Shown in pieces: positions 9,831-63,204 of a stretch of 64,000 nt of DNA. The notes under the pieces were generated by a model, which was given only the letters and a program-made list of their open reading frames with translations, was not told the origin of the DNA and did no database searches. The DNA is taken from the NCBI GenBank assembly GCA_903813345.2, contig CAIIXF020000007.1, positions 18,091,564-18,155,563 on the forward strand, in the 5' to 3' direction. The position numbers were made by a program, and so were the translations under genes. The DNA is from Owenia fusiformis. Its lineage: Eukaryota; Annelida; Polychaeta; Sabellida; Oweniidae. Each line of letters opens with the position of its first letter. Within the stretch, counting starts at the first letter, position 1.

Positions 9831-10057
9831 CCAACCGCCCAGCAAACTGATTACAATATAGCACCTTTCAAAATGCCGTTCCACCATTTTGAAACCTGTC
9901 ATGTGTAAATAACGTTAAAGGTCACAATAGCATATGGGGCAGAATATCGATGTTGCATTCTGGGAGCCAATCCTCCTAGGATTACAACAATGGCAATCTA
10001 TGAAGACATGCATTTGAGTTTGTAGGAATTTATCAATCATTTGCAGGTATGAAGATA

Positions 10058-13000
10058 TACGAGGGTTGATCATAAAGTTCTCATAATATCTCTCTAATTT
10101 CTTTATTTTTCAATATTTTCCTATGAAATTTTCACAGAATGTGCACAATGGAATGTTCTATTAATCCAGCAAAAAATATTTAGAATAACAAAAACATTAT
10201 ATAAGAAATGGTTGCTATAGTAACTTGAAATCAAGGCACCCGGGCAAATAAAAAAACTAGCTAGAATAGCCCCCATTAACCATGTTTAAATACATTATAA
10301 GTTGTCAAATAAGCCATCAAACACATTAAATTGTCAAATAATATGTGCTCTTGACTGTTGTGAACTATTATAATGGTCATGTAATTGTGTGATCTTATAA
10401 TGGATGATTGTTATGCTTCATTAGAAGTGACTGTTAGACCACATGACTGTTTTGTCAAATATCCTGAGGAAAATTGATTTTGCCCCTTTAGTTCATTTTT
10501 AACATGTAAAACCACACACAGGGTGTAATTTTGTTGATATCTTAGCCAGCGGTGGCGGTAGGCATATATTTTTGTGAGTCATCATGACTCAGGTAGTTTC
10601 AAAAAAGTGAGTCACAAGAAAAAAAGTTGAGTCAAAGCTATAAAAGTGTTTTTCTTGAGTAAAAATGCATACAAAATGTAGAAACCACATACAAAATCTA
10701 TTTTTTGATTTTGTGCATACCTTTTATTGTACTCTTATAGCACATTAACAACTAACAATTAATTAATTAGGCAATTGCAAGAAAAATGTCACTATCATAG
10801 GCCAAGGGAAAAGTAATAGTAAGCTGTATATAGAAGAGACAGGTAAACAATTAGGATTGAACATTTTTTCAAAAACTTGCCGTCTTGGTACGAGTTCTCC
10901 TTACTGGTATCGAGTCGTACCACCAAATCTCCCAAGAATCTTCTCCAAAGTGTTTTCGAAACGTATATTGTTGAATATTTCAAATCTATATCCTAACTCT
11001 TCGATAAGACTGCATAAAAAAACACCAACTGTACGTACCTGCAATTGCCCGGCAAGTTGAAACTTCCGGATACATGGAAAGATTGAATCTTGTAACGATT
11101 GATTTGATTGGTTGTAATTAGAAGTTTAAAATTCCAAGAAAACTGTTAATTTCACCATTTAAATTTGGTTTAAAAAGATATTATATGAAACAGATGTTTT
11201 GATAAATAATTATTAAGTACACCTTTTATAGTTTTGTACACTTTAATTGATTGTTATTTCTAGAATATGAATTACATTTTAGAGAACCAGATAGGTGTCA
11301 CTGGCGGCGGTTATCAGGAACCAATCAAATTCCTTGTTTCAAACTTCCATTTACACGGAAATCCGGGTAACTTGCCAGACAATTGTAGGTTTTCAGAATA
11401 TCTCACCTCAAGACGGCTTTATTCACTCTATATCACTTGAATGGGGTTGATTCATAGGTAAGAATTGTGAACTATCAATTTTGGATCAACTCTGCATTGT
11501 TTTTTGAAAATTATACACAAATAATGTTAAAATCGCCATGTTAACAAGTGGCCTAAATCCTAGTTGTTCACCTGTCTCTTCTATATACGGCTTACTATTA
11601 CTTTACCCTTGGCCTATGGTAACTATTAATCATCTGATTATCTGGTCCAGCGAGTCATGGGTGTGAATGGAGTGGGAGAGGAGTTTCTCCCTGTGTGGAG
11701 TTACACAAATTGGGGTCAAAGCGTTTCATGTTGAAATTAAACATTTTTGCAATCATTCCAAAGTCTAAAACGGCAATATAAGTCCGACCACAATACTGGG
11801 CATCATTTAAATTGAATACGGTAGAATCTTGTAATTATAGCTGATCAAATGAAACCGAAAGTAGATTTGTTTTCATACCTAATTTATCATCATTACCCCC
11901 CTTAATGTGCGATCGACTGGATTTTCATGTGCCCATTATCTATCTTCATAGGATCAGCTTTAGATCTAGTGAATCGAAGATCTTAACTTGAGGGAGTTAA
12001 TTGAAAATACTTGGTGAAAACTTACGATAGATCGGTCACTGTGAGCACCATTGATAAACCTACTGCGCATTACATCTGCGCATGCTGATGAAGGGGACGG
12101 CTCAAGGAAACTTGCTAACTTAGCGAAGGAATTTTGCGAACTTGCGAAGGAAACTAAAGGTTCGTAAATCTAGCGTGTGAACATTCAAGGGAAGATTTTA
12201 TGCGGTAATTTAGATAAATATACGATCACTAAAATCCTTAGAAGGGAGTATAAACTCAATAAATTATTGTTCAATGTTATGTTCGTTTTATTGCATTTTT
12301 GATACGCCCCCTAGCAACGTGCTTCACGAGATAAACAAATCGAGGGATCGATCAATGTTTTCAAGTTTATCATTGAATCTGAATCACAGGGCTTTAGAAA
12401 TTATATGAAATACCGAAATGAGAAAATGATCGGTAGGAAGGAGGCTCGATTGCGCTGAACGAAATGTTAGATTTCCGGAATTAGCAAAATTATAAATTTG
12501 ACGTATAGGGATCAATTTAACCAAGTACCAAGCGGGGATTTTGCATGTGAAACAAACGTGCGTCAGAAAGACTCGGTAGACAATGAATATTTGCGTCAGA
12601 GTTGCAAAAATGTGAGTAAAAAACGTAAAAAATTGCGTTAACGCCACCTCTGTTAGCAATATACATGTATTTGTTTTAGATCATGTTTAGTCTGACCAAA
12701 GGATCTTACAAACTTAACATAACATTTTATCAGTATGAATTTTATTTTTCTGAAGATCTCTGCATCTATTGCATTCTCTTACTCAGTCATTTCTGATCAT
12801 TAGCTTTGAGTCTCGGAGTCTGGTATCACATCTAATGAAGCATGTTAACATCCCTTATGACATCACACAATCCACTTGATCATTTTTTTCAATAGTAAAA
12901 GCACTTAACAACATATTCAAGTTAACATTTTAACGTGTTTGGTAATTTATGAGAGGTAATTATGTATTTTAACATGGTTAATTAGAGCCATTTTCTGAAT

Positions 13001-13200
13001 TACTTTTAATTGCCCCGGGTGCCTGGATTTCCAGTTACTATGGCAACCATTTCTTATTTAATATTTCTGTTAAACTAGATATTTCTTGCTGAATTAATAA
13101 GACATTCTATGCTGCACATTCTGTGAAACTTTCATTAGAATATATTGAAAAATAAAGAAATTAGAGAGATATTATGAGAACTTTATGATCAACCCTCGTA
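10058..13200. mobile_element. Mariner-like foldback element with a 2.1 kb insertion
   Basis: Ends tacgagggttgatcataaag (left) and its reverse complement (right, ending 13200) begin terminal inverted repeats of about 200 bp. A second copy of the family lies at 30523-31549. Aligning the two shows that this one is in the opposite orientation and is split: homology runs 10058 to about 10548 and resumes at about 12670. The 2.1 kb between is inserted DNA carrying another foldback (10794-11618). No transposase frame is evident, so it was presumably mobilised in trans. Confidence 0.85.
10794..11618. mobile_element. Nested foldback MITE, 0.8 kb
   Basis: The left arm begins ataggccaagggaaaagtaa and the right arm is its reverse complement ending at about 11618, giving near-perfect inverted repeats of about 70 bp. 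A weaker inner pair exists around 11040 and 11345-11390 (caattgcccggcaagtt against its complement), so the arms are longer but degraded. It sits within the insertion splitting the element at 10058-13200. There is no coding capacity. Confidence 0.75.
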
Positions 13201-13826
13201 TATATAAAGTCTTGGATTCATTTATTGTGCTACCATGGGCTTTCAAGAGAGTGAATGGGAATTTTTTTATCAACCGGTTGGGAGAGTTTGAGACATAAAA
13301 CTTTGAATTTAGGTCATTGTGACAACTTTTGATAGATGAGGCTTATTAAGTTTTCCAGTTTATACATGTATCCCTGAAGAAGGAATAGTCTAGTAAGTAG
13401 ATCTTCTGTTAGGTTGAATGTTTTACTAACTTCTGGTAGGTCACAGTATCAAGCTAAGTGGAGTTGGGGCAATCTGCGCTAGGTTCAATTTTTACTTGGT
13501 TCGGTTTTTCACTAACGGAGATACTTCATTCCCATGATTCAAATTTGTTTTCTGGGATCAGTTTGGTTTGAATTTGTACATCAAGAGTCCACAAATTGGG
13601 GGTCTGTTCATATTCTGTTATTACATTTCTGTTCGGTACATGCTTTTTGTTTTTATACAAAACAAATATATTCCCGCAATTAAATATGCATTGTGGGTAG
13701 GGACTGCTGTGAAATTATGAACGCAAGTGACATCTATCTAAAATGATAATCCAGTTATTGATTGTGCATGCGTTATAATAATTTGAACCAATTAAATCGC
13801 TGGATTCAATAAGCTTGTGCTAAAAA
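13201..13826. other. No feature recognised
   Basis: AT-rich sequence between a mariner-like end and a tandem duplication. I see no exon-like frame, RNA gene or clear repeat on either strand. Confidence 0.5.
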
Positions 13827-14945: not shown

Positions 14946-15237
14946 ATGGGAACTCCTCCATATATTACTTATATTATTTGTCAGGTTACGCAGCTTCCAT
15001 ACAAAATAAAAAATATGTATTTTTAAAATAAATTATTTGTCTAGTTTTCGTTAAACAAATATCCTGAGACACATAGGGCCTGTAGAAAAAACTAAACAGA
15101 AAAATAAAAAAAATATTCATACCTCCAAATCTGCTTTATTGGTCAGATAATGCACCAAATCATAATGGTTCTTCAAAATAAAAATTTAAGGGGACGGAGC
15201 GCCTTATCTCGTGAGTATAAAGCAAATCAGGCAAAGG

Positions 15238-15249
15238 TGCGCATGCGCA
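15238..15249. promoter_or_regulatory. Perfect palindromic NRF-1-type site
   Basis: The sequence tgcgcatgcgca is a perfect match to the consensus YGCGCAYGCGCR bound by NRF-1 in animals. It lies three bases before the ATG of the helicase-like exon, the position expected for a housekeeping-type promoter core. Function here is inferred from the motif only. Confidence 0.5.
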
Positions 15250-15251
15250 CA

Positions 15252-15414
15252 ATGGTACCCGGAAACATGGCTCAGTTTGTGAAGTTACCACAGGAAAATG
15301 TCAATGATTTAGTTGCCGCTGGTCATAATGTTTGCATTGTAGGTCAAGCAGGAACTGCTAAGACAACTCTTTTTCGAGAATTACTTTATGATGCCAAAAA
15401 TGCCGGAAAAAAAG
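15252..15414 (+). pseudogene. First exon of a PIF1-like helicase (fragment)
   Basis: From ATG 15252 the frame reads MVPGNMAQFVKLPQENVNDL, then a Walker A loop GQAGTAKTTL (about 15342-15371) preceded by AAGHNVCIV. This spacing and context are those of PIF1/RecD-like superfamily 1 helicases, which use the loop to bind ATP. A donor (aaaaaaag|gtagaa) at 15415 follows AGKK, where the family usually continues toward motif Ia. No later helicase motif is present, so only a 54-residue start is retained. The frame stays open to 15563 if unspliced. It sits in one arm of a foldback element and has no counterpart in the other arm, which suggests a captured or retained host fragment. A Helitron helicase origin is an alternative. 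Confidence 0.6.
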
Positions 15415-16483
15415 GTAGAAAACGCAATAGTGTTCCCAAAAATTTTCGCGGGGTTTTTATGACACATGCGCAGTGTCAATTTACTGAGCGGACCTTTCAG
15501 GTCTCATGGAAGTTAACAGGAAATGACAAAACAGGAAGTGACAATTTTTTTGGCATTTTTTGACATTTTTTGAACAAAGATAACAGATTCACTTTTGACC
15601 TCCAGTCAATTCAACTAGTTCCAGATACCATTTACAGGTCCAGGATCACAATGTTTATGGTCAGAATGACCCTAAATATCATGAAATAACCTTTTCAGCC
15701 CTATGAAAATGTGACTGAAAAATAGCTAAAAGAAGGAGGTAGGAAAGGTCACTGAACAGAATCTTTTGAATTTTTCAGAAAATGTGCCCAACATATTGCT
15801 CTAAATGGTACAATCTTTGAAAATTTGATATCATTCATAGAAAGAGAAAAAAAATGAAAAAACTGATTTGAAAAGCGATCTATTTTCCTTTTTATGACCG
15901 CCATTTTTGTTTACGACAATTTTCTAAAATTTCAAAGATTGTATCAGTTAGAGCATTATATTGGGCACATTTTCTGAAAAATTCAAAAGATTCTGTTCAG
16001 TGACCTTCCCTAGCTCCTACTTTTAGCTTTTTTTCAGTCACACTTTCAAGGGACTAAAAAGGTTATTTCATCATGTTTAGGGTCATTCTGACCATGCACA
16101 TTGTGATCCTGGTCATGTAGATGATATGTGGAAACAGTTAAATTGACTGGAGGTCAAACCAGAACTCTGTTATCTTTGTTCAAAAAATGTCTAAAAATGC
16201 CCAAAAAATTGTCACTTCCTGTTTTGTCATTTCCTGTTAACTTCCATGAGACCTTAAATGGCCTGGAGAAATTTTACTCACGAGAATTGATGATTACTGA
16301 ACACATATAGGCATAAGAGGTGAGCGACCCAGTTATTTTTGCGTATAAATGTTTCAAGAATAGCATGATATCAAATAATCTGTACATTATGCTACGATTC
16401 ATTCAAAAATTGAATCTAGAGGACAGGTGACCATATTTTTCATATTTCTTTTTTAATTTTTAGTCGCATTGTGTATATACCTC

Positions 16484-16766
16484 CTAGATGGAGGACTTCC
16501 CACTATCCGTGGGCCTAAGATCTTCCACTGTGGCTCCTGTGGAAAAATGAAAAATTTAGACAGGAAGAGCCTTCTAACAAACATTTATAAGATATAATAG
16601 AAAATATATCGTTATTTGGTTCCATAGTTTGAAACACATACATATTAAAAGTTTGAGATGGCTTTTTCAAATTATGATCGAGCTGAGGAAGCCTTATCTT
16701 CTTACCTTTAGAATCCAGAGTTGTGTTTTCACTATTTTGGAAATCGGAAACAGCACGACTGCGCAT
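16484..16766 (-). CDS. Small two-exon open frame, unknown (low confidence)
   Basis: ATG at 16766 opens a 20-codon exon (MRSRAVSDFQNSENTTLDSK) ending at 16706 with a good donor gtaaga in phase 1. A pyrimidine-rich acceptor (ttccacag) at 16537 starts a second exon whose in-phase reading ATVEDLRPTDSGKSSI ends in TAG at 16484. The product would be about 37 residues, with no recognisable domain. A near NRF-1-type motif (ctgcgcatgcgtg) overlaps the start codon region. It may be a real short gene, the 5' end of a longer one with another splice pattern, or chance. Confidence 0.25.
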
Positions 16767-21426: not shown

Positions 21427-24748
<3,322 letters not shown>

Positions 24749-27951: not shown

Positions 27952-30900
27952 TTACTTTCTATCGTATTGGTAATCATTATGCCTAAACGTAGGCCGCTTT
28001 ATCGAGTACTGAAAATACATGTATTTAAATTACACAAAATAGAAACTATGATTTTAGTACAGTATATGAATAAATCACGATTATTAATATAATTATTTAG
28101 AATTACAATTTATCATTATGCAAAGATTTGTAAATACAGCACTAAAAAGGGCATTTAAAAAGACACGATTTCCTCTTCGATGTACCCTTTTCAAATAAAC
28201 GCCCATGGGTATATTAGTGAGAAACTATGGTATCCATTGTTATTCAAATCAGGAAAATGCAAGATTATCCGATGTTGGAGTTTATAAAATAATCTAACAC
28301 TGTTCAAAACTATTCTTTGATATTAGCAGATATTTCTAAATTTAAATTCAATTCTACTTTTTCTAATACTGTTTTCATTAAGTTTTATAAATAAATGTAT
28401 AAGGATTGTGTACTAGGACTGGATGTGTTAGCTACGGGATTTATCCTGAGGGAATAATGTTTATCTCCCGAGGGACGACAATGGTTATAATTTGTCACGC
28501 TTGTGTAGGTTTGAATAATATAACCCCAAATCATATCTTAGAAGCGGCAAGGCTAGGGTGTTTGCTATATTTCCCGCCCGAGCTCAAGTAACAACTAAGC
28601 AGACTAAACAACTAGGGACTTGAACGCCCCATCTTGTAGAAAAACTCATGAAAACCCTCCAGTATATGAGATACATCAGTACAGGAACTTAACCCAACCC
28701 CAATATTCAAAAACCTCCCAGTATATAACACACGCGACTCACATCAACTGTTGGATCGACATGTTCCAGTTGTGGAAAGAAGTTCTTGTAGGCGTCTGTG
28801 TTCTGCAGTTCAGTATAAGTGTTGTCAGCTGGTGTTGCCATGCGCTCATTTCTCACATTTTGTGCTGGTAAATTCTACATTGTATAATTGATATTTTAGT
28901 TTTTAAAAATGTTTAATTCATGATTAGTCTTGTGTACGATTACCTTTTCTACCTTATGGGGACATTAACCGTTGGAAAGATGTCTCTGTCAGTAATGGGA
29001 AATGGATGGATTGGAAGTATGGTATTTCTTGGTTTGTTTACAATGGAATAATATATTTTTATATTCATATCACTTATCTCAAATTAAGAAGAAGTAGATA
29101 AATAATACAATTGCCAATAAATACCTAAATTTAATAGCTCTGTTATAGAGATACAAGGGACTTACGTCATCATATGTAGGTTGAACATAGTTCGGCTTTT
29201 CCATTTCATACGACTCTGTGGGATGACTAGTATAACCGTTGTTATCATATGACTTCAAATCTCGTTCGTGCCTATGCGAGAAATATGGTTATTATGCATG
29301 TTATGTAGGAAGACACTTGAAACAAAAGAATAGAGAGTCACAAAACTTATGATATAGACTTTAGTTAAACCAATCGTCAAAACGTTTGAGCTTATCCTGT
29401 CTGACGTTAAAAGTTATCATCATAATATTTTTGTTTTCTGTCAAATAGCCAACGCTTTTTATGACCTTATGTTATAATTCAAAATGTGATTTCTGTTACC
29501 TCAAAGACCGTTCCTCTTCGGATTGTTTAGGAGGGCTCCTCCTCCTACAGCAAACAGCGACGACGATGATAATAATGATGAGCAATACCACTAAGCCCGC
29601 GACCCCTCCAACTATATACCATTGATTTACACAAGTCTTAAAAAGGTAGATATGATCAGCGTTACATCTGAAAACAAAAATTCTCATCTACAGTACAAAC
29701 AAACAAGCGCATGTGGTTATGTGAGCATTTAGAAGCAGAGGTCGTGATGTGCAGCCTTTCTTTAACTGGTCTTCACATTAGTCATTACTACCACATTTCC
29801 AAATGGCCTAATTGATACTGAGGGAAAGATGTATTCACCTCAATAGAATGGAATATTTGGTGTTGGTGTATACTCACTTGCAAAACGGTTCATTCTTCTC
29901 ATAGTCCAGTGTACATGTACCCTGTCCCCCTTTACAGTCGTCCTCCAGGAATAGAGCACATTTGGACTCGCATGCTAAGGCAGATCCGGCATAAAGAGAG
30001 TTTGAGCGACATCTTTGAGTAGCGTTACAGAATTCTCCACATGGATCATTTACGATCTGACCAGCTAAAAAGCATTAAATTGATTTATAAATAACCAAGA
30101 GGTTCCAAAAAGGTTTGACTGACATTTATGATAAATTCAAGATGCGGGTGAGCTTTAAGTGGACATTTTTGTGTTCGCTCGATTATAGTCTGAAATAAAC
30201 AGCTACCGAACGGAAATCAAAGATTCACGCAAAAATCTCATATAATGAATGTTATATTCTATATGCTGTATAATTAAACAGAGCTTCATTAATTTTTCGA
30301 TGCTCACTCACCAACTCCTAGAGCAATATTTAGTTTGTCATCGTCAACACTTGCACTTGTTCCATTTGTAAATGTGACATTCTTTGCAGCTTCTCTGATG
30401 ACATTTCCCAACTCAGTGGTAAATGTCGAATTTCTATTGTTATTCTCTATCAAGGTTACAGCTGGGTATTCTACTTTACACATTAAACTATCGGTACTAA
30501 AACAAACAAAAATCACAATATATACGAGGGTATATCATAAACTTCTCATAATATCTCTCAAATTTTTTTATTTTTCAATATAATCTAATGAAATTTTCAT
30601 AGAATCTGCAGTATAGAATACTTTATTAATCTATCAAAAAATATTTAGTATAACAGAAATATTAGATAAGTAATGGTTGCCATAGTAACAGGAAATCAAG
30701 GCACCTGGGGCAAATAAAAATAATTGAGAGAATGAGCTTAATTAACTTTGTTTACATACATAATAAACTCTCATAATTACACATTAAAATGTTAACTGTA
30801 ATATGTTGTTAAATGCTTTTACTATAAAATAAATTGATCATGTGGATTGTTTGGTGTCATAGGGGATGCTTACATGCTTCATTGGATGTGATACCAGGCT

Positions 30901-33900
30901 CTGAGAATCAAAGCTTAATGATCAGAAATGACTGAGTAAGATAATGCATAGATGCAGGGATCATCAGAAAAATAATATTCACACTGATAAAAAGTTTAGT
31001 TTAGTTTAAAAAATCCTTGATGTCCTTTGCTCATACTAAAGATAATCTTAAACAAATATGTTGCAAAGATATCAACATAATTACACCCTATGCGGGGTCT
31101 ATTACTTATTTAAGATGAACTAAAGTGGAAAATCGACTTTCCTCGGAAAACTTGACAAAACAGTTGTAGTGTCTAACATCACTTCTAATGAAGCATTACA
31201 ATCATCCATTATGAGATCACACAATTCACATGCCCATTATAATAGTTTAAAACAGTCAAGAATACATGGTATTTAACAATTTGATGAGTTTCATAGCTTA
31301 TTTGATAACTTATTATGCATTTAAACATGGTTTGGACTATTCCTGCACGATCTTTTATTTGCCCCGGGTGCCTTGATTTCCGGTTACTATGGCAACCATT
31401 TCTTAAATAATATTTCTGTTATACCAAATATTTTTTGATAGATTAATACAGCAATCTATACTACACATTCTGTGAAAAATTCATCAGAATATATTGAAAA
31501 ATAAAAAAAATAGAGATACATTATGAGAACTTTATGATATACCCTCGTATAAGTGATTTTTCCATATTATCTGGAAAAATTCCTCATCGGATAAATATGA
31601 ATAGAGGTTAAATTTTGTCCGCAATAAACTTGACTATAACAGCTAATATAATATAATATAATATAATATAATATAATATAATATGGTGATATTTAGAAGA
31701 ACAATACACAGAGTCTGAATTTATTAAAATAGCAATTATATTACGATAGGTGAGTTTACATAGCTGTTGGAGGCAGGTATGAGTTGCTTACCTTGCTGAG
31801 CAATCCTCGCAAGTGACGGTTGCATTTGGTGTCGATGTTAACCCATCAGTTAACTAAAAAATGGAAAAAACAGTTATCAATTAGTTTGATTAATATCCAG
31901 TTTAGTTTTATCCGATCACGTACTCTTTCTACATTGCAACAGTACACAGATTAAGCATGTGTACACGTGGATTATCACACCTGTTCAAAACAGCGAATGC
32001 AATTTCCCGTACTTCCATTCTAGACAATGTATGTTTTAAAAACTATAATATAGAAATACAAATGTACAATTCGAAATATAATGTCATTTAACAATTCACA
32101 ATGATAATCAACCCTTTCATCCTTAAAATTGGACTGATCTGAATGAATATACACGTATATGTTTTGTTGTTTTAGGCCTACATTACTGCTCATTCTTTAC
32201 TCACCTGTTTTTGAAACGATTCTCTTTCTGTGGCACATCCTGAGCTATCTATATTTGTAAATACAACTGGGATCGCTATTTTCTCATTTGCTGGAATAAA
32301 TAAGGGTTATGTTCTGGGTGGGTTTGGATAAAATCCATTTCCAAACCGACCATATATTACTGCTTTATCCTATACCCAGTAGAGTTTTCTAAGTTTCTTC
32401 ATTTTTTCACATTTTTGGTTCCAATTTTTGGTTCAGCACCGGAAATGGAAGGATATACCCGAAGTGGGAGATATGGCGGGAGATATGGAAGTTCTGGACA
32501 TGGAAACCTCAAAATCAGGAAACAGGATATATCTTACCAACTTATCTCCCTAAAACTCTACAGGGCATAGGATAAAATATATCTTGATCATATCCCAAAG
32601 CATCTGCAATTCTCTCCATGTCATCTTCTTGGTTGTGTACATTATTTGCATTACAATGTGTTCGAAATTTTGCAATAAGGAAAGTATGCAAATCACTAGA
32701 TACGTTAATGATATCGCAAATGGGAATCAGCGTTCTTCATATATCAAAATTGTCAACACAATAATGAGTAGCGGTTTGATATTTCTACTTACATATATCA
32801 ACCGGTGTAGAATTCGGAGGGGTCGTTGTTGTTGTTTGTGTCGTGGTGCTTGTCACTGTGAGAGTAGTGGCCTCATCCGTTGTTTCATTTCCTGAAACAA
32901 AGTCACAGGAAAGTTTCATGAATCAGTAATAAATATTTAGTTATTCAGTTACGAGGGTATCGTATTGAAGATCACATGTGTGGGCCAAATCAACAAATAA
33001 TTGCACTAGATGGTTTTAACCAAAATTAACAAACAAATAATTCAATAAATAATGGGCTAGTGGTTGTCTACGTTAATGACTCGTAGAACTATGATTCATA
33101 GAACTGAGCGATAAACTATAAATCATAATTGATAAATTACACGCACGAGTCTTGACATCTTCAATAGTTCCTGCTATCTCGATGTTAATGTATTCTAAAA
33201 CAGTAGTACATGTTATACATTAATGTATGTTATTCTTAAGTAAAATACAAATATAATTCATTATAGTTATTGAATTGAAAACTATATGTTCATCTTATAT
33301 ATAGCCTAATTTTGGCTATTTATTTTGGTGGTTACTTTTATTTGGGGTAGATTACTAGCTCCATGGTCCAATGATAAAAGGCACGGCAACATTATTTTAA
33401 AGAGTGTCTATGATAGTTTATGATCACCAGTATGATCGACATATTAAAAGAGAAAATCGATCCTATAAAAATCATCAAATAGCAGTCAAATGTTACTATC
33501 ATGCTTCTGGAAGCTGGAATCATGTCATGGCAGTTACTATAAACAGAATGAAAGAAAAGAGAAAAAATATCTACAAGCTTGAAAAATCGATGTCGCTTTA
33601 AAAGGACTACAGCCCTGCAAAAACGCCATGGCTCTAGTGACAACTTCCAATTAGAGTACAACATACACTTGATAGTTTATGTGATGTGTTTTGGTTCGAG
33701 TAACTTACCCATTGATTGAGTGTTCGTAATACTTAAAACTGTTGATACTAATTGCGTTGTATTTGATCCTGACACTTTTGTTGTATTTGATTCTGACGAT
33801 GTTGTAATGGAATCTGACGCTGTTGTTGTAATTGATTCTGAAGCTGTTGATGTATTTGATGCAGTTGATTCTGACGCTACTGTTTGATTAATTGATTCTA

Positions 33901-35353: not shown

Positions 35354-36449
35354 AGTGACTTTTTGCCTAGTTTTATTCATATCTTCATCTTGCCAATTTT
35401 TGAATGGACCAAACATATTGAATCCACTTGCATTGGTCACATATGACGACGTGGTTCTATTATAAATTACATAATGTTATATAACAATACTTTCAGATAG
35501 GACTAACAACCGCCAATAGCTGACTATGTAATTGTAACGTACAATATATTTAATTTATAATAAAACGTCATTATGTTACATAGCCAACAACAAACCTCTC
35601 TAGTTTTGTTCTCCTTATTTTTGCCTATCAAAGAGCGCATGTACCAGGAACACTACAGCTTCATAAAACTCATGTGCGAGGTATCAAAACATCATGCCAT
35701 TCTCATAGTTAATGAAACGCCCTAATGAAACTGTCATTCACTATTTATTAAGCAGTAAAAAAACTAATTTGCCACATGGGTGACAAAATGATCCTTATTT
35801 CCTACTTATGTGGAGTCTCGCATCATACGATTGTAATTTTAAGCGAATTGTACGCATGGGGTGGATTTGGACGATTAAAGCGCAATTGGACTAAATATAT
35901 TGAAAGTCCTCGTGAAATCTGTTTTCAGTATTATACTTATGAGCCTTATGTATTTAAAAAAATGTTTAGTAGCATATTTTTAGCTAGAACAATCGGCGAT
36001 GTGTGTAACCCAAAATGTATTCTACATATACTAGGCCGTCCAACTGTCCCGCAATTCGGGTATTTGTCATGCATTTACTGAAGAAATTCAAGTTACACCC
36101 GTTTTTTGCGTAATACGCATTTTTCTGATTATGGCAAGAAAAAATATTTCAGGAGCAGAACATCTAAAAATTTTCACAGGAAATTACGTATATGTCACGC
36201 CTTTGCTCCGACTTTCCTTGTTGAAAATTTGAGCCAATGTGTTCAAAATTTGGACCAAGGTGTTCAGATTTGGACCAAGGTGTTCACAATTTAGAGATTG
36301 GTCTTCAATATTGGTAAGTCACTCATTTTAGGTGTTCCAAGGTTGACAGGCCTGATATACTGTGCACACATTTACCAAGTAAGTGAGCAGTGTGCATTCC
36401 TTATATAGGGTTTAGCATTGCAGGTTGGGGTATCCGATGAAAGGTTTAA

Positions 36450-36600: not shown

Positions 36601-36969
36601 TCCGTGTTATCAGGATGGGGCAATTACGCATTACATACTTACAATTTCAATACAACTGATAAAAACTAGTGACTTTTACGTACGTTATTGCATGTGGGTG
36701 CACCTTCTGTTATGTTTAAGCATTTCAGGCTAGGACATATATGATATAGTTTATAAAATGATAATTTATTTTGAAATAGAATGATAAAAACGGAATTTCA
36801 TTTTAGAATTTTACATACCTACTCACGAGAGGGATATAACATGCAATTCTTGCATTAAAGCTACACCTTGCGTTCAAGACCGATACCACACAGAAATATG
36901 AAAGTACTTTTCCGAACCTTTCTCAAGGGCTGTAACTAAAATATATGGGATAAGTAACGCGTGACTTAC

Positions 36970-37530
36970 TCGTTGCGTTAGATGGTGTAGTTCCATCCCC
37001 CGATGTAACTGTATTAGTTGTATCTGTATTGACTGAATTAGTAAGTCCATCTGTACTGGCTGAATTAGTTGTCATTCCATCTGAACTGGCTGAATTAGTT
37101 GTCATTCCATCTGTAATGGCTGAATTAGTTGTCATTCCATCTGAACTTGTCATTCCATCTGAACTTTCTGAATTAGTTGTCATTCCATCTGAACTGGCTG
37201 AATTAGTTGTCATTCCATCTGAACTGGCTGAATTAGTTGTCATTCCATCTGAACTGGCTGAATTAGTTGTCATTCCATCTGCACTGGCTGAATTAGTTGT
37301 CATTCCATCTGAACTGGCTGAATTAGTTGTCATTCCATCTGAACTGGCTGAATTAGTTGTCATTCCATCTGTACTGGCTGAATTAGTTGTCATTCCATCT
37401 GAACTGGCTGAATTAGTTGTCATTCCATCTGTGCTGGCTGAATTAGTTGTCAGTCCATCTGTCGTAACTGTATTTTCCGTTGTACTTTCATCTGTAGTAA
37501 CTGTATTTTCCGTTGTACTTTGCGATGCAC
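36970..37530 (-). CDS. Mucin-repeat cassette exon (10-residue repeats)
   Basis: An acceptor (aaattgttgcag) at 37531 and donor (gtaagt) at 36969 bound a 561-base exon, phase 1 at both ends, so it can be included or skipped without frame change. It encodes about 187 residues: TTENTVTTD repeats first, then about 13 copies of a 10-residue unit close to MTTNSASSDG, one copy shortened. The 30-bp DNA unit is very uniform, suggesting recent expansion or conversion. All residues suit O-glycosylation. The donor end (ctaacgcaacga) resembles those of the exons at 42021 and 33709. It has no signal peptide, so it needs an upstream first exon that I could not find. It may splice to mucin exon 32891, or belong to a second mucin gene. 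Confidence 0.75.
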
Positions 37531-37689
37531 CTGCAACAATTTATATGTATTTTATTTTTTATCAAATATGGTGTAACTGTATGTAGATAATTTTAAAATC
37601 ACGAGGATGAACTGTATTAAAGAATTGATCAAGTATGTGACTTAAACAATATGTAGAGAGAGAATTGACCTATATGCAGTACGGCAACT

Positions 37690-42007: not shown

Positions 42008-42020
42008 ATGCATTACTTAC

Positions 42021-43289
42021 TCATTGCGGTAGATGAAGTATTTACGCCCGAAGAAACTGGATTGGTTATCAGTCCACCTGTAGTTACTAAATTAGTTGTC
42101 AGTCCATCTGTTGTACCAGGTTTGGTCGCTGAATTAGTAACTGTACTAGTTGTCGGTCCATCTGTAGTTACTGACTTGGTTTTTGGCCCATCTGTAGTGA
42201 CTGGAATAGTTGTTGGCCCATCTGTAGTTACTGACTTGGTTGTCAGTTTAGATGTAGAAGCTGAATTAGTTGTCAATCGATCTGTAGTGACTGAGTTAGT
42301 TGTAAGTCCACCTGTTACTGAATCAGTTGTTGTAGCTGAATTAGTTGTTAGTCCGACTGTAGTGGCTGAATTGGTAGCCAGTTCATCTGTAGTAACTGAA
42401 TTAGTTGTCAGTCCACCTGTAGTAACTGAATTTGTTGTAGGTCCATCTGTAGCGACTGAATTTAATGTTAGTCCATCTGTAGTAACTGAATTTGTTGTCA
42501 GTCCATTTGTAGTTACTGAATCAGTTGTCACTCCATCTGTAGTAACTGAATCAGTTGTTGGCCGATCTGTAGTGACTGAATTGGTTGCCAGTCCATCTGT
42601 AGTAACTGAATTAATAGTTGTCAGTCCACCTGTAGTAGCTGAATTAGTTGTTAGTCCGACTGTAGTGACTGATTTGGTTATCAGTTCATCTGTAGTAACT
42701 GAATTAGTTGTCGGTCCATCTGAAGTAACTAAATTAGTTGTCAGTCCATCTGTAGTAACTGAATTAGTTGTCAGTCCACCTGTAGTAACTGAATTAGCTG
42801 TTAGTCCGACTGTAGTGACTGAATTGGTAGTCAGTCCTTCTGTAGTACCTGAATTAGTTGTCACTCCACCTGTAGTAGCTGAATTAGTTGTTAGTCCGAC
42901 TGTAGTGACTGAATTGGTAGTCAGTCCTTCTGAAGTAACTGAATAAGTTGTCACTCCACCTGTAGTAGCTGAATTAGTTGTCAGTCCACCTGTAGTGACT
43001 GAATTAGTTGCAAGTCCACCTGTAGTTACTGAATCAGCTGTCAGTCCATCTGTACTGACTGAATTAGTTGTTAGTCCATCTGTAGTGACTGAATTAGTTA
43101 CAAGTCCACCTGTAGTTACTGAATCAGTTGTCAGTCCATCTGTACTGGCTGAATTAGTTGTTAGTCCATCTGTACTGGCTGAATTAATTGTAAGTCCATC
43201 TGTAGTGACTGAATTAGTTGTCGGTCCATCTGAAGTAACTGGATTTGTTGTCAGTCCATCTGTAGTTGTTGAATTTGTTGCCACTGCAC
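42021..43289 (-). CDS. Large mucin-repeat cassette exon
   Basis: An acceptor (tctgactttag) at 43290 and donor (gtaagt) at 42020 bound a 1269-base exon, phase 1 at both ends. It reads 423 codons without a stop: about 40 copies of a 10-residue unit close to TTNSVTTDGL, with some shortened copies and one TTINSV insertion. It is rich in Thr, Ser and Asn and fits a dense O-glycan stalk. Start (GAVATNSTTTDG) and end (SSTAM) resemble the exon at 36970-37530, so the two arose by duplication. No signal peptide or transmembrane segment is present. Its membership is inferred from strand, phase and likeness to the downstream mucin gene, and an unseen upstream first exon is required. Confidence 0.75.
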
Positions 43290-43790
43290 CTAAAGTCAGA
43301 GCTTATCAAAATAATACCACGCATACATCATTATTTGGGAAAAGGATTTGTATAGGTGAGACCATACGTTTACCCCTTAACCCTTGATACAGAAACTCAA
43401 AATGAAGGTTGGCTCAGAGCTGTCATAGTGATTCCACAATGATTGAGTGTGTTATGTTTATGTTACAAAATGTACATGTAATTAAGGGTGGTACTTCTAG
43501 AAGTATTAACTGTATTGTACTTACATAAAAATAAACCGTTCAGAAGTAACGGTATAATTTTGGAGAGATGGTAGATATCCATTTTATCTAAAACATCAAA
43601 CAATAAAATGATAAATAGTACCGTGGGTACTGGGCTCACATGGCGTTGCTCAAAAGTGAATGATGGCTAAAATGGCAGAAAATAAAAAAAAAACGGATAT
43701 AGTTTTTGCCGATTTTTGTAACAAAATTATTTCATACAACTACTCTTTACAGTGACATGGCTTTTTACTCTGCAGGACACCTGAAATTAT
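43290..43790. other. No feature recognised
   Basis: Expected to hold an intron and possibly a first exon for the mucin cassettes. I found no signal-peptide exon with a phase-1 donor here on the minus strand. Confidence 0.4.
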
Positions 43791-58700: not shown

Positions 58701-60887
58701 TTCCAAAATTCAAACGTCAATATCTTTGGAACTAGGTAAAAAAAAAAATTTAACCCTTCTTATTTTGTAGATAATCATGTTATTGTAACATACTAGGAGA
58801 ATGGGCATTATTTTTCAAAAACTGTTCTGCAGGGGGTCTTTTGAAGATTGATTAATTAACATAGCGCTCAATGTAAATGAGCAAAATTTTCGAGGCCTGC
58901 TATTTTCAACTGGGGCCACTTTTCAACACCACTTCGTTAGATATCAAAAATATATGTATTAATGATACTTATTTCAGGAAAATGTTGCTTTATATATAGC
59001 AAGTGCAGTTGAACAGCTAACTGACCCCACTATTATAAACGTTGAATACTGTCTTTATGCCGCCCCCGTTTAAACAATTATAAAAATAAACATTGAAAGC
59101 ATACGCCAAAACAAAACAAGCACGTTAGTTTTACAGAAAATACAAATTAAATCATTCATCATTTCAAATCGAAACTGAACAATAACAGTATTACTTCAAT
59201 TTTATTTAACCTAGAACCTTTGAACTTCAGCACTTTCCAGATATATATAGATATATTTATAAAACCTTCAACAGTCTTAAATTGCGTAGTAGTTAGAGAA
59301 ACATATTCTCATAAAAATATTCGGTACTCTTAGACGACGAGAGAAAACGATCAGAGGAAATGTGTAAAAAACACAATTTTCCAACCGACCAATTACTGTA
59401 CATGGGAAAGAAAGACTTTTTGTAATAAAAACCGATACTATAAAATTAATAGTTTGTGAAACGATAAAGCCCCACTGTTATGAAATCACAACTGACCAAG
59501 TTTCCATTGGAAAATGTATACACTTGAACGGCCTTGGTCCAGAGATAGCGTCCCTTGTCCAAAACAGCTTGTAATAAAATCAAACATGGCTTACCTGGCC
59601 CCAGTCTATACTGGCTTGAGCAAATGTCTCATTCGGAGCTGCTTTTATCCGTGGGGGAAAGTTTGGATTGTTCGGTGGGAGGGCGGCGAGAAACACGAAC
59701 GCTACCAAACAGAACGGGAGGTTGAAGGCGGGGATGTTCCACGAAGAAAATATTCCCCCTAAACCACTATTCACATAAACGCTAAAAAAAGTTTAAATGA
59801 ACTGTATCGAATCTGAAAGCAACAAGAATGATAACATGTATGATAATTAGAGAATTCGATTTGATCAAATGTCCGCATTATATTCTGGAAATCTGACAAA
59901 ATGCGACTCGCGAAAAAGCACATGGCTGATAGCTTAATCATTAGTATCAGTCATGTAATGTCAAACAAGATAAGAAAGAATATTGTTTTCTCGCTGAAGC
60001 AAGTGGCAGTGAACACGGAAATCCAACGGAATATTGAACCCGTTTATCCCTTGTCCCTCTTGGTTTTCATTGTTTTAAATGATGATATCATCTGGGTTAT
60101 TGTAGAATGGGCACTTTTATATTCATGGAGCCGTTCATGTATAATTTTTAGTTCCGACTATTCGCAATTAGTCAATAAAAAGCAATGAATTAGTTTTGAA
60201 GTTATTAATTTATAAAAATCAAGGACGTCTGTCATCATGAGAAACTATGACATCTCATTTCTTCTCAGCCCTAAGATGTTTCAGGTGAAACAGAAAGATG
60301 CTACGAGTATCAGAATGGACGTCTATATATAGACGTCCTGATAAAAGCAACCTTTTCAATTAGACATCAAAAACAGTTTCAACTTTTACTTTGTGCTGAA
60401 ATACATTGTACCGACCGATCGTTCAACTTCTATCCAAATCTGTGAAAATAGTCACGTTCTGGTTATTTGCTTCTGTTTACCTGAGCATGGCGAGGAAAAC
60501 CACGGGAAACACAGTCCAGGGGTACCAGTCTGGCTTATCAATCGACGCTGAAACTACGATCCCTACAAGCATTCCATGGAACGTACATCCACCGTTTGAA
60601 ATAGCTCCGTGGTCCTGGCCAAGGAGAAAGGCAGTCGCGATGGCTGATATAAGCCCCGTTATACCACATATTGCCACCCAAGGATTTGCGATGAACATAC
60701 CAATCAATATCAAAAGACCACTGATGGGGTTGTTGAGAAAGATCGGTGCTCCTATGGCACGTAGGATCCAACTTGGTACTGCCAGGACCCATGGTTTAGT
60801 TTTTAACCAGTCGGTTAATGCAGGGAGATCTCCCATAATGTACCGAAATAAAAACTTAAGAACTTTGTTGTTATAATCTTCTGACAT
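52755..60887 (-). CDS. Urea transporter (SLC14 family), complete
   Basis: Six exons: 60887-60481, 59781-59595, 55158-55011, 54648-54514, 54216-54161 and 52940-52755 (TAA). They join in phase to 372 residues, close to the usual SLC14 length. The family moves urea passively across the plasma membrane through a trimeric channel with two homologous halves. Exon 1 carries the first half's signatures: NPISGLLILIGMFIANPW, then a GQD and KPDWYPW segment. Exon 2 has NIPAFNLPF, the UT signature (LPxxTxPF-like), followed by an extracellular-loop region with N-glycosylation motif APNET. Exon 3 repeats the half-domain start (AQIYGSNQAIVGVLILLGLL), exon 4 has APPEQIYTGEWSYNAMLA, and exon 6 has a looser second signature (LVLAFPF). 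It ends RISYPE and a hydrophilic tail. An alternative N terminus may exist (see 63205-63347). Confidence 0.95.
52990..54062. repeat. 30-bp minisatellite in a urea transporter intron
   Basis: Units close to gtgctaatagccagatatat followed by ctgttgcgtt form two clusters, about 52990-53335 and 53715-54062, roughly ten to twelve units each, separated by about 380 bp of unrelated sequence. Both lie in the intron between exons 54216-54161 and 52940-52755. Since 30 is a multiple of three, long frames appear in it, but they are artefacts. Confidence 0.95.
54217..54513. other. Intron of the urea transporter
   Basis: It contains gtaggccacgcccacgccct with ctccatcactgtccttctgg, closely similar to 21840-21880 (gtaagccacaccctctccat, ctctatccttctggg). 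A fainter match (gaaagatgctacgagtatcagaatgg) is at 60290-60320. This is a small dispersed repeat with no other feature. Confidence 0.5.
56640..57200. repeat. Dispersed repeat related to 26.2-26.8 kb
   Basis: In reverse orientation to the copy at 26220-26820. Shared blocks are cccattttcgcactttgatt at about 56685 and agattgtaaggaatatattg to ctgattctgcctttaa at 57110-57200. The middle of this copy is expanded or replaced. It lies within the long urea transporter intron. Confidence 0.6.
57476..58875. repeat. Four-copy tandem repeat, about 372 bp unit
   Basis: The phrase aaatctgcaatatta recurs at about 57481, 57854, 58226 and 58600. Copies share long blocks such as ttttgagaaaaggac and ataatggcagccaatgggga with only scattered differences. 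It is located in the intron between urea transporter exons 59781-59595 and 55158-55011. The ~86-codon minus frames repeated in it are artefacts of the repeat. Confidence 0.95.
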
Positions 60888-60935
60888 TATGGCAGGTATT
60901 TGTTGATTGTGAAACTTGGTTGTGCTTCTATTTCG

Positions 60936-63204
60936 CCTGCCAAAAACCTTTGCACATCTCCAAAACTTCTTCGGGCTGCATCAGTTTACCGATCGACTGT
61001 CACTTTGTTACTCTAACATCACCTCGTTCATTCGTATTATATTCGCATATATATACGGTAAGCGGTATTAGTATCTGATCCTTGGTCTCCTGGGATACTA
61101 TCTATTTACCGAAAAAGCAATAAAAACACAAAGTCAAAGGTCCGATGTTTCCTAACATTCGTCGTTTGATCCAATCTATTTCATTGCCGCGTAATATACA
61201 TTTAGTAATATTTTATATGTCCAATGCCGGTGACCATGAATGTGGCAATTGTTCTTGGCTTCGATCCCTCACACCAAAATGTCTAATTGTTGATTAGAGA
61301 TTACCAATAAACATCAGCTAGGGTTCTTTCATGATTGTAACATATCCATGATCAAGGGAATGTATACATAATGTAATACGTATACAGCAATTAATTGCTC
61401 GCAATGTTTAACAATATAAGTAGTGTCAATATCAGCTGATCCTTGTCATAAAGTAGGTGTGTTCCCACTAATCTGTTCATATATTCCAACCTCCTTCATC
61501 ATGGTCACTGGCTTGGAGGAAAAATTCACCAATAGTCAGTCTGATCTATTACTATTATCGACGGCAAGCAATGTTACTACTGCACTGTTAATTTGTAAGA
61601 CTTGCGGCACTATCTGCAATTTCCGATGTCTTTTAGCTTTCTAAGATCTACAGATACATGTAAATCGACAGTAAAAGGGTAGTCAGAGACTTAAGGCTTG
61701 GAATACATGCCTAACAACGAGAATGTATAAAAATTGTTCGATACGTTATATTAGTAACAATCTCGAATTACTTTATTATTGTTAATGAAAAATGTTAGTA
61801 GTTAGCGAGGCAATATGACAAAAACACAACCAGGGAATTACCAGACTGTCGTTATATTATTGTGCACATCCCATCCCATTATAAGGGCGGCATTGATTAA
61901 ATTATGTACCGTGATCTTCTGGCATGTATTGTATGAATATATTCATTATACAACAGTAGTATGTCAGACGTAAGCATAAATACTATATGTTATATACATG
62001 CCTTCCTGTTGAAATTGAAGTGAAGTGAGGCGTGAGATTAAACTAGGCATTAACATCCAACATGTCACCATCTGCCATTTGTTACAGACGCCGTCATTTG
62101 TTAAAGACGCCGTGTCACAGACGCCGAACCCCGAACCCCATCCACAAAAAAGTTGTGGAGACATAAAACTGGTTACAACCCTATTGACTACTGTATCTAA
62201 ATACAAATAAGTGTTAAAAATTGACATTTTTCATGTAATTGAACATAGCTGAAACTTAACCTATTTTTGCTCATCATTTTATGTATTCTAAAATATAATG
62301 CCTTTATATGAACTACGTCAGCATACTTTTTTGATCGTTCCGATTGTAAGTAGCTTTGATATCTGGCTTCAAAATTGTGAATTTCGTGAAATTGTCAATG
62401 TAACAGGACAACACGCTTTTGAAAACATGTCATATCTCAATAATAAATGGTCGCATCTTTTAATTTTGGTTATGCTGGCATAGAGAACATTCATTCAGAG
62501 TGTGATGAGAGCACTGTATTTGATCTCAACCTATTACCGAGTATATAGACCAAATAAAGTAAATGTAAAATTTATTCTGTGAAAATCGACATGGTCGTTT
62601 AAACACACCCACACGGCATTAGGGGAATCCGAGAAAAATAAGTTATATGTGGTTAGCAAGTCCTTGATTCAGTTTATCAGACCAGCATGTTCCAAATCGT
62701 GATAATAATTGTGATTGAATTATAATGAACATTATCTGAAAATTTCTGAAAATTCTCCAAGATGTAATTCACACATGGCCAGCATTCTAGTGTAAAGACG
62801 GACACTATTCAAGAAAACAATATATCCACTCTGTTTTAACGAAAACATTTTACGAAATGACCAGCACGACCCCATCTATGAGCGAATATGGTGTGAAACT
62901 GTGACAATCGACATGCGTGAAAATCGACATGGTTATACCATTGAACTCAAAGCAGTGAATTAGTCATTTCTATATATCACAAATGGATTGATAAGATTTT
63001 ATGTGATTACCAATACACTGATAACACATGCGTAAGAGTTTTCTGAGAATTACGCATTAAGATCAATTGATAGACAATGAAAAGATAACAGCTAAAGAGT
63101 TTTCTCTTTGTTCAGCGTACCTTTTCCATTTTATACGTCTTTGCAAAAATACGTTACATGTAAGCAGATGATAAGTTTTTGGAACTTCCATAAGCATAAT
63201 TTAC
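60936..63204. other. Upstream region of the urea transporter
   Basis: No exon, RNA gene or clear repeat was recognised apart from a short direct duplication of acgccg phrases near 62090-62125. It is either intergenic promoter DNA or the first intron of a longer transporter transcript starting at 63347. Confidence 0.4.

Follow-up and report, generated by a model that had tools for sequence, protein, structure and literature searches.

The locus examined here raises the question of whether a foldback DNA element has taken up the start of a helicase gene or has come to lie next to one. The initial annotation had proposed that one arm of the foldback contains an extra segment of about 250 bp, bearing a promoter-type palindrome, a start codon, a PIF1-like first exon and a splice donor, and that the element could disperse this unit. 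Within the 64-kb stretch of DNA that we analyzed (the window; GC 35%), our best reading is an orphan helicase exon fragment that lies beside an ordinary non-autonomous foldback or may be nested in it. The features in question are the following:

15207–15220, plus strand: left outer match, identical at 13 of 14 positions to 16272–16285; the sole link that would place the exon inside the left arm
15221–15488, plus strand: segment without a counterpart beside the right arm; it counts as an insert if the 14-bp match reflects homology, and as plain flank if not
15238–15249, no strand: perfect palindrome TGCGCATGCGCA, an NRF-1-type motif
15252–15414, plus strand: putative first coding exon of 163 nt (54 codons and one base) with a PIF1-like N-terminus and the Walker A string GQAGTAKT
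15489–15826, plus strand: left arm of the foldback, with continuous homology to the right arm
15827–15925, no strand: loop of ~99 nt between the arms
15926–16265, minus strand: right arm of the foldback, the inverted partner of the left arm
16272–16285, minus strand: right outer match, partner of 15207–15220, just beyond the right arm

Alignment showed that the foldback at 15.5 kb is real, with two inverted arms of ~330 bp each separated by a loop of ~100 nt. Ungapped, the arms pair over 233 nt at 89% complementarity (15594–15826 with 15926–16158) and over 98 nt at 95% (15490–15587 with 16166–16263); in a gapped alignment, the homology gives out at ~15489 at the left end and at ~16265 at the right. 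An alternative alignment that extended the arms to ~15440 was set aside, as its local score was matched in 1,608 of 2,000 shuffles and was thus no better than chance. Folded as single-stranded DNA, 15480–16290 reaches −306.7 kcal/mol, as compared to a shuffle mean of −80.9 (sd 5.3, n = 20). Long, near-perfect inverted arms and a short loop are the marks of a foldback or long-TIR non-autonomous DNA element, and the CpG observed/expected ratio within the foldback is 0.14. No further copy of the foldback was detected within the 64-kb window, the best other match to 15150–16380 being 37 bp long (E 0.002), and a scan of viral_contigs with the outer 29-mer of the arm returned 0 hits. Neither the inner boundaries (15489/16265) nor the outer ends (15207/16285) are flanked by a clean target-site duplication. 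Exact candidates came to 7 bp at best for the inner ends, after 5,022 boundary pairs had been tried, and to 5 bp for the outer ends; none falls at matching TIR ends.

The window also possesses a second inverted-repeat family with mariner-like ends (TATACGAGGGT..., TATACGAGGGTTGATCATAAAGTTCTC). Two copies are present:

10052–13205: copy of ~3.15 kb, arms 10055–10254 and 13004–13203
30508–31561: copy of ~1.03 kb, arms 30521–30719 and 31353–31551

With these two copies, foldback-like elements are seen to vary in length within the window. The ~2.1 kb of additional interior in the longer copy gave no Pfam match in six frames. Positions 15765–15790 of the foldback arm share a 20–28-nt TGAATTTTTCAGAAAATGTGC-like stretch with second-family arms (10124–10148 and 31464–31483); because local matches of 20–28 nt are the only ones to its arms, we consider the second family distinct from the foldback at 15.5 kb.

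Upstream of the left arm, between TCTCGTGAGTA and the arm itself, stands the helicase segment. As initially annotated, it carries a perfect palindrome followed three bases on by an ATG, and both elements are present: TGCGCATGCGCA occupies 15238–15249, and the ATG starts three positions past its end, at 15252, with A at −3 and G at +4. We presume TGCGCATGCGCA to be an NRF-1-type motif. The motif is unique in the window at up to one mismatch (shuffle mean 0.03; 3 of 100 shuffles contained one), and it sits within a 14-bp perfect palindrome (15237–15250), one of 34 perfect palindromes of at least 12 bp in the window. A related sequence, GCGCATGCG, is found at 16761, and the longest palindrome of the window is the 22-bp perfect GGACGTCTATATATAGACGTCC at 60317–60338.

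The frame that holds the ATG is open from stop to stop over 15108–15563 (151 aa). Simulated windows contained on average 0.325 ORFs of at least this length (n = 40) versus nine in the real window, several of which lie in tandem repeats. Two Ser/Thr-rich ORFs on the minus strand (36923–37540 and 42013–43302) share the same 30-bp (10-aa) tandem repeat, and the latter matches the Pfam family GLTT (E 2.5e-7). A donor-like site is likewise there, AAG|GTAGAA at 15414/15415 (GT at 15415–15416), the sole AGGT between the Walker A string and the arm, though it matches poorly at +4 to +6. A codon split after its first base at this donor would let the protein continue as GKK-V, in the manner of PIF1 proteins. 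Over the 54 codons of the exon frame, GC by codon position (0.57/0.35/0.26) follows a coding-like pattern, with a third-position value that is low relative to window exons of a trypsin-like gene (0.46) and a urea transporter (0.50). The trypsin-like gene, for a serine protease, has its exons on the plus strand (23136–24740); the urea-transporter exon lies on the minus strand at 60477–60980 (Pfam UT, E 6.5e-25). Exons of these two kinds give the window an animal-like character.

The most fitting reading of the exon peptide, held with reasonable confidence, is the N-terminal end of a PIF1-type helicase. In a phmmer search of PDB sequences, yeast Pif1 ranked at the top (E 0.024), ungapped over 35 residues, with ABC ATPases close behind (E 0.039 and up); over 32 aligned residues, the peptide shares 14 identities with yeast Pif1, 12 with chain 7otj and 10 with human PIF1. 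Of the 2,087 frames in the window, a profile built from five PIF1 P-loop segments scored the exon frame best (E 0.0004, with the runner-up at 0.45). The upstream Q and the Walker A string align with PIF1 without gaps, as do the spacing between them and the GxAGTxK[ST] pattern of the yeast and human PIF1 proteins. The annotated PIF1-like context of the Walker A loop is supported, while the loop itself departs from the GxAGTGK[ST] form, with Ala in place of Gly before the Lys; also unlike PIF1-family helicases, the exon offers just 54 codons and no other helicase motif. General family searches were less discriminating. Pfam returned many P-loop families at E 0.001–0.2, with PIF1 (E 0.064 and 0.057) behind several of them and below the curated PF05970 cut-off (13.3 and 13.4 bits versus 25.9), and PHROGs and NCBIfam searches with the peptide likewise gave scores below cut-offs or mixed families. 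No relative of the peptide was found in viral_contigs (13 pattern stretches); in genome_contigs, tblastn singled out one from 158 stretches, prokaryotic and, by its sequence, apparently an ABC-F-type ATPase. Phages contributed four weak places matching the peptide (E 0.1–0.9).

The remainder of a helicase gene was sought throughout the window. Search patterns for motifs II, III, V and VI of helicases, which recover four of four motifs in one PIF1 protein (L006) and two of four in another (L007), matched nowhere in the six frames of the 64 kb; thus, the helicase is at most a fragment here. With stricter patterns, the sole match was a loose one of TIH type at 36389, which lies between stops and was rejected. 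Pfam searches of the three plus-strand frames of 15.0–24.9 and 24.9–34.8 kb recovered the trypsin and no PIF1 continuation. Two viral-contig PIF1 proteins, used as tblastn queries, matched four weak places (E 2.9–7.6), none at the exon; this is itself a weak test, since the exon went unmatched even with E allowed up to 10. Within the reach of these tests, which divergent or short exons could have escaped, the exon appears to be an orphan within the window and at most a fragment.

Whether the exon segment lies inside the left arm, as the initial annotation had it, depends on one 14-bp match, and the asymmetry of the arms is accordingly suggestive, not established. The match is rare by chance. 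With both flanks shuffled, its score was reached in 35 of 2,000 trials, and an exact 11-mer common to both flanks arose in 25 of 2,000; when the sequence just outside the right arm was kept fixed and the left shuffled, the score was reached in 1 to 38 of 3,000 across nine settings; and of 1,116 pieces taken from other parts of the window, none attained it. Depending on the test, the chance of such a match is therefore 0.03–1.8%. If the match is homologous, the extra segment measures ~265 bp. Against a position within the arm, continuous arm homology stops at 15489/16265 with no clean target-site duplication, sequence comparison of the arm flanks detected no outer similarity beyond the 14 bp, and the 11-mer recurs at 36820 in a different context without further similarity. 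Composition offers a separate view: 15221–15489 has a GC content of 0.42 and a CpG observed/expected ratio of 0.85, close to the 0.84 of the upstream flank and far from the value of the foldback, which makes it less likely that the segment is an old part of the element. This composition is compatible with capture and with plain flank alike and does not separate the two.

Taken together, we put at about even the chance that an orphan PIF1-type exon fragment was already in place and an ordinary non-autonomous foldback inserted just downstream of it. Here, 15252–15414 would be what duplication or decay has left of a PIF1-type helicase gene, namely a fragment of its first coding exon; the foldback, a non-autonomous long-inverted-repeat DNA element spanning ~15489–16265 and mobile only if a transposase encoded elsewhere recognizes its ends, would most likely have landed ~75 bp downstream of the exon donor, in a former intron 1; and the 14-bp match would be coincidental. 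The arms, the motif, the frame and the donor-like site are observed; the helicase identity, exon status and order of these events are what we infer. Consistent with this insertion, continuous arm homology ends past the donor at 15415, the segment shares its CpG ratio with the upstream flank and not with the foldback, codon-position GC is coding-like, the Pif1 identities and PIF1 profile favor a helicase, and the missing motifs and Pfam continuation on the plus strand (15.0–34.8 kb) fit an orphan. Against it count the rarity of the match just outside the right arm, which favors a nested or captured segment; the lack of a target-site duplication at 15489/16265; and a thin helicase identity, with a weak Pfam PIF1 score, an ABC-F-type relative in genome_contigs and an exon missed by tblastn with phage PIF1. 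A smaller, though substantial, share of our expectation goes to a foldback whose true ends lie at ~15207 and 16285, with a ~265-bp piece comprising palindrome, start, exon and donor copied into its left arm by Pack-TIR-type gap filling or template switching. The 13/14-bp match adjoining the right arm, the lack of a helicase remainder in the window and the known foldback and TIR captures in animals, including Ssk-FB4 of Drosophila melanogaster (PMC8277862), speak for such a capture; the end of all similarity past 14 bp, an outer target-site duplication candidate of just 5 bp, the recurrence of the 11-mer and the single copy in the window speak against it. What stands of the initial interpretation is thus a PIF1-like N-terminal exon with a donor beside a foldback, while capture finds neither a second copy in the window nor a clean target-site duplication. 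That the foldback captured a putative promoter, start codon, first exon and donor of a PIF1-type gene in one arm and, in addition, can disperse the unit appears unlikely to us.

Two further explanations receive even less credence. It is quite improbable that a larger autonomous element, with a helicase first exon of its own, gave rise to the foldback and that one arm lost this exon. Transposons encoding helicases do exist, and AcademH, KolobokH and Helitron are named as such (PMC10799480); a pearl oyster study lists a PIF1-like helicase among transposon-related domains (PMC9646362). The segment, at a CpG ratio of 0.85 versus 0.14, is nevertheless far from the arms in composition, and no transposase or further helicase motif lies between or beside them. 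Moreover, counted from the ATG, the Walker A lysine of the exon frame stands at residue 37, as compared to K1068 in the Helraiser Helitron protein (PMC4778049), which speaks against the start of a Helitron RepHel. Least probable among the explanations weighed is that the frame is open by chance, holds a P-loop-like string and is no helicase fragment at all: weak family scores, the non-canonical Walker A and the ABC-F-type relative would suit it, and it is opposed by the wide margin with which the PIF1 profile puts this frame ahead of the other window frames, by the ungapped 14/32 identity to yeast Pif1 with its upstream Q aligned, and by the scarcity of ORFs this long in simulated windows.

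The significance of the locus follows from where the segment lies. If it is not inside the element, the arrangement amounts to a routine transposon insertion next to a gene fragment. If it is inside and is copied along, foldbacks join Helitrons as carriers of promoter, exon and donor; a captured unit in a foldback that is still mobile would move as promoter plus exon, and exon-trap gene birth would become testable in a marine-invertebrate-like genome. Mobile elements are already known to capture the starts of genes, and a captured segment, if true, would join the kind represented by Pack-TIRs and HelibatN3. Pack-TIRs are gene-derived DNA tied to inverted-repeat transposons, usually single copy and fragmentary (PMC8277862). 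The arrangement here resembles them, and Ssk-FB4 with its foldback FB4 in particular, in joining gene-derived DNA to an inverted-repeat transposon; it differs in that parental copies and TIR elements were identified there (PMC8277862), whereas here one foldback copy is present in the window. In HelibatN3 Helitrons, the unit described as having been spread consists of the NUBPL promoter together with six codons and a splice donor (PMC4778049), which parallels the function proposed here, in that promoter, coding start and donor are spread by an element. HelibatN3 is, however, a rolling-circle Helitron with many copies and documented transcripts (PMC4778049), in contrast to the one foldback copy, known from its sequence, that we describe. 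A dispersing exon-trap foldback, if true, would be the foldback counterpart of the HelibatN3/NUBPL case.
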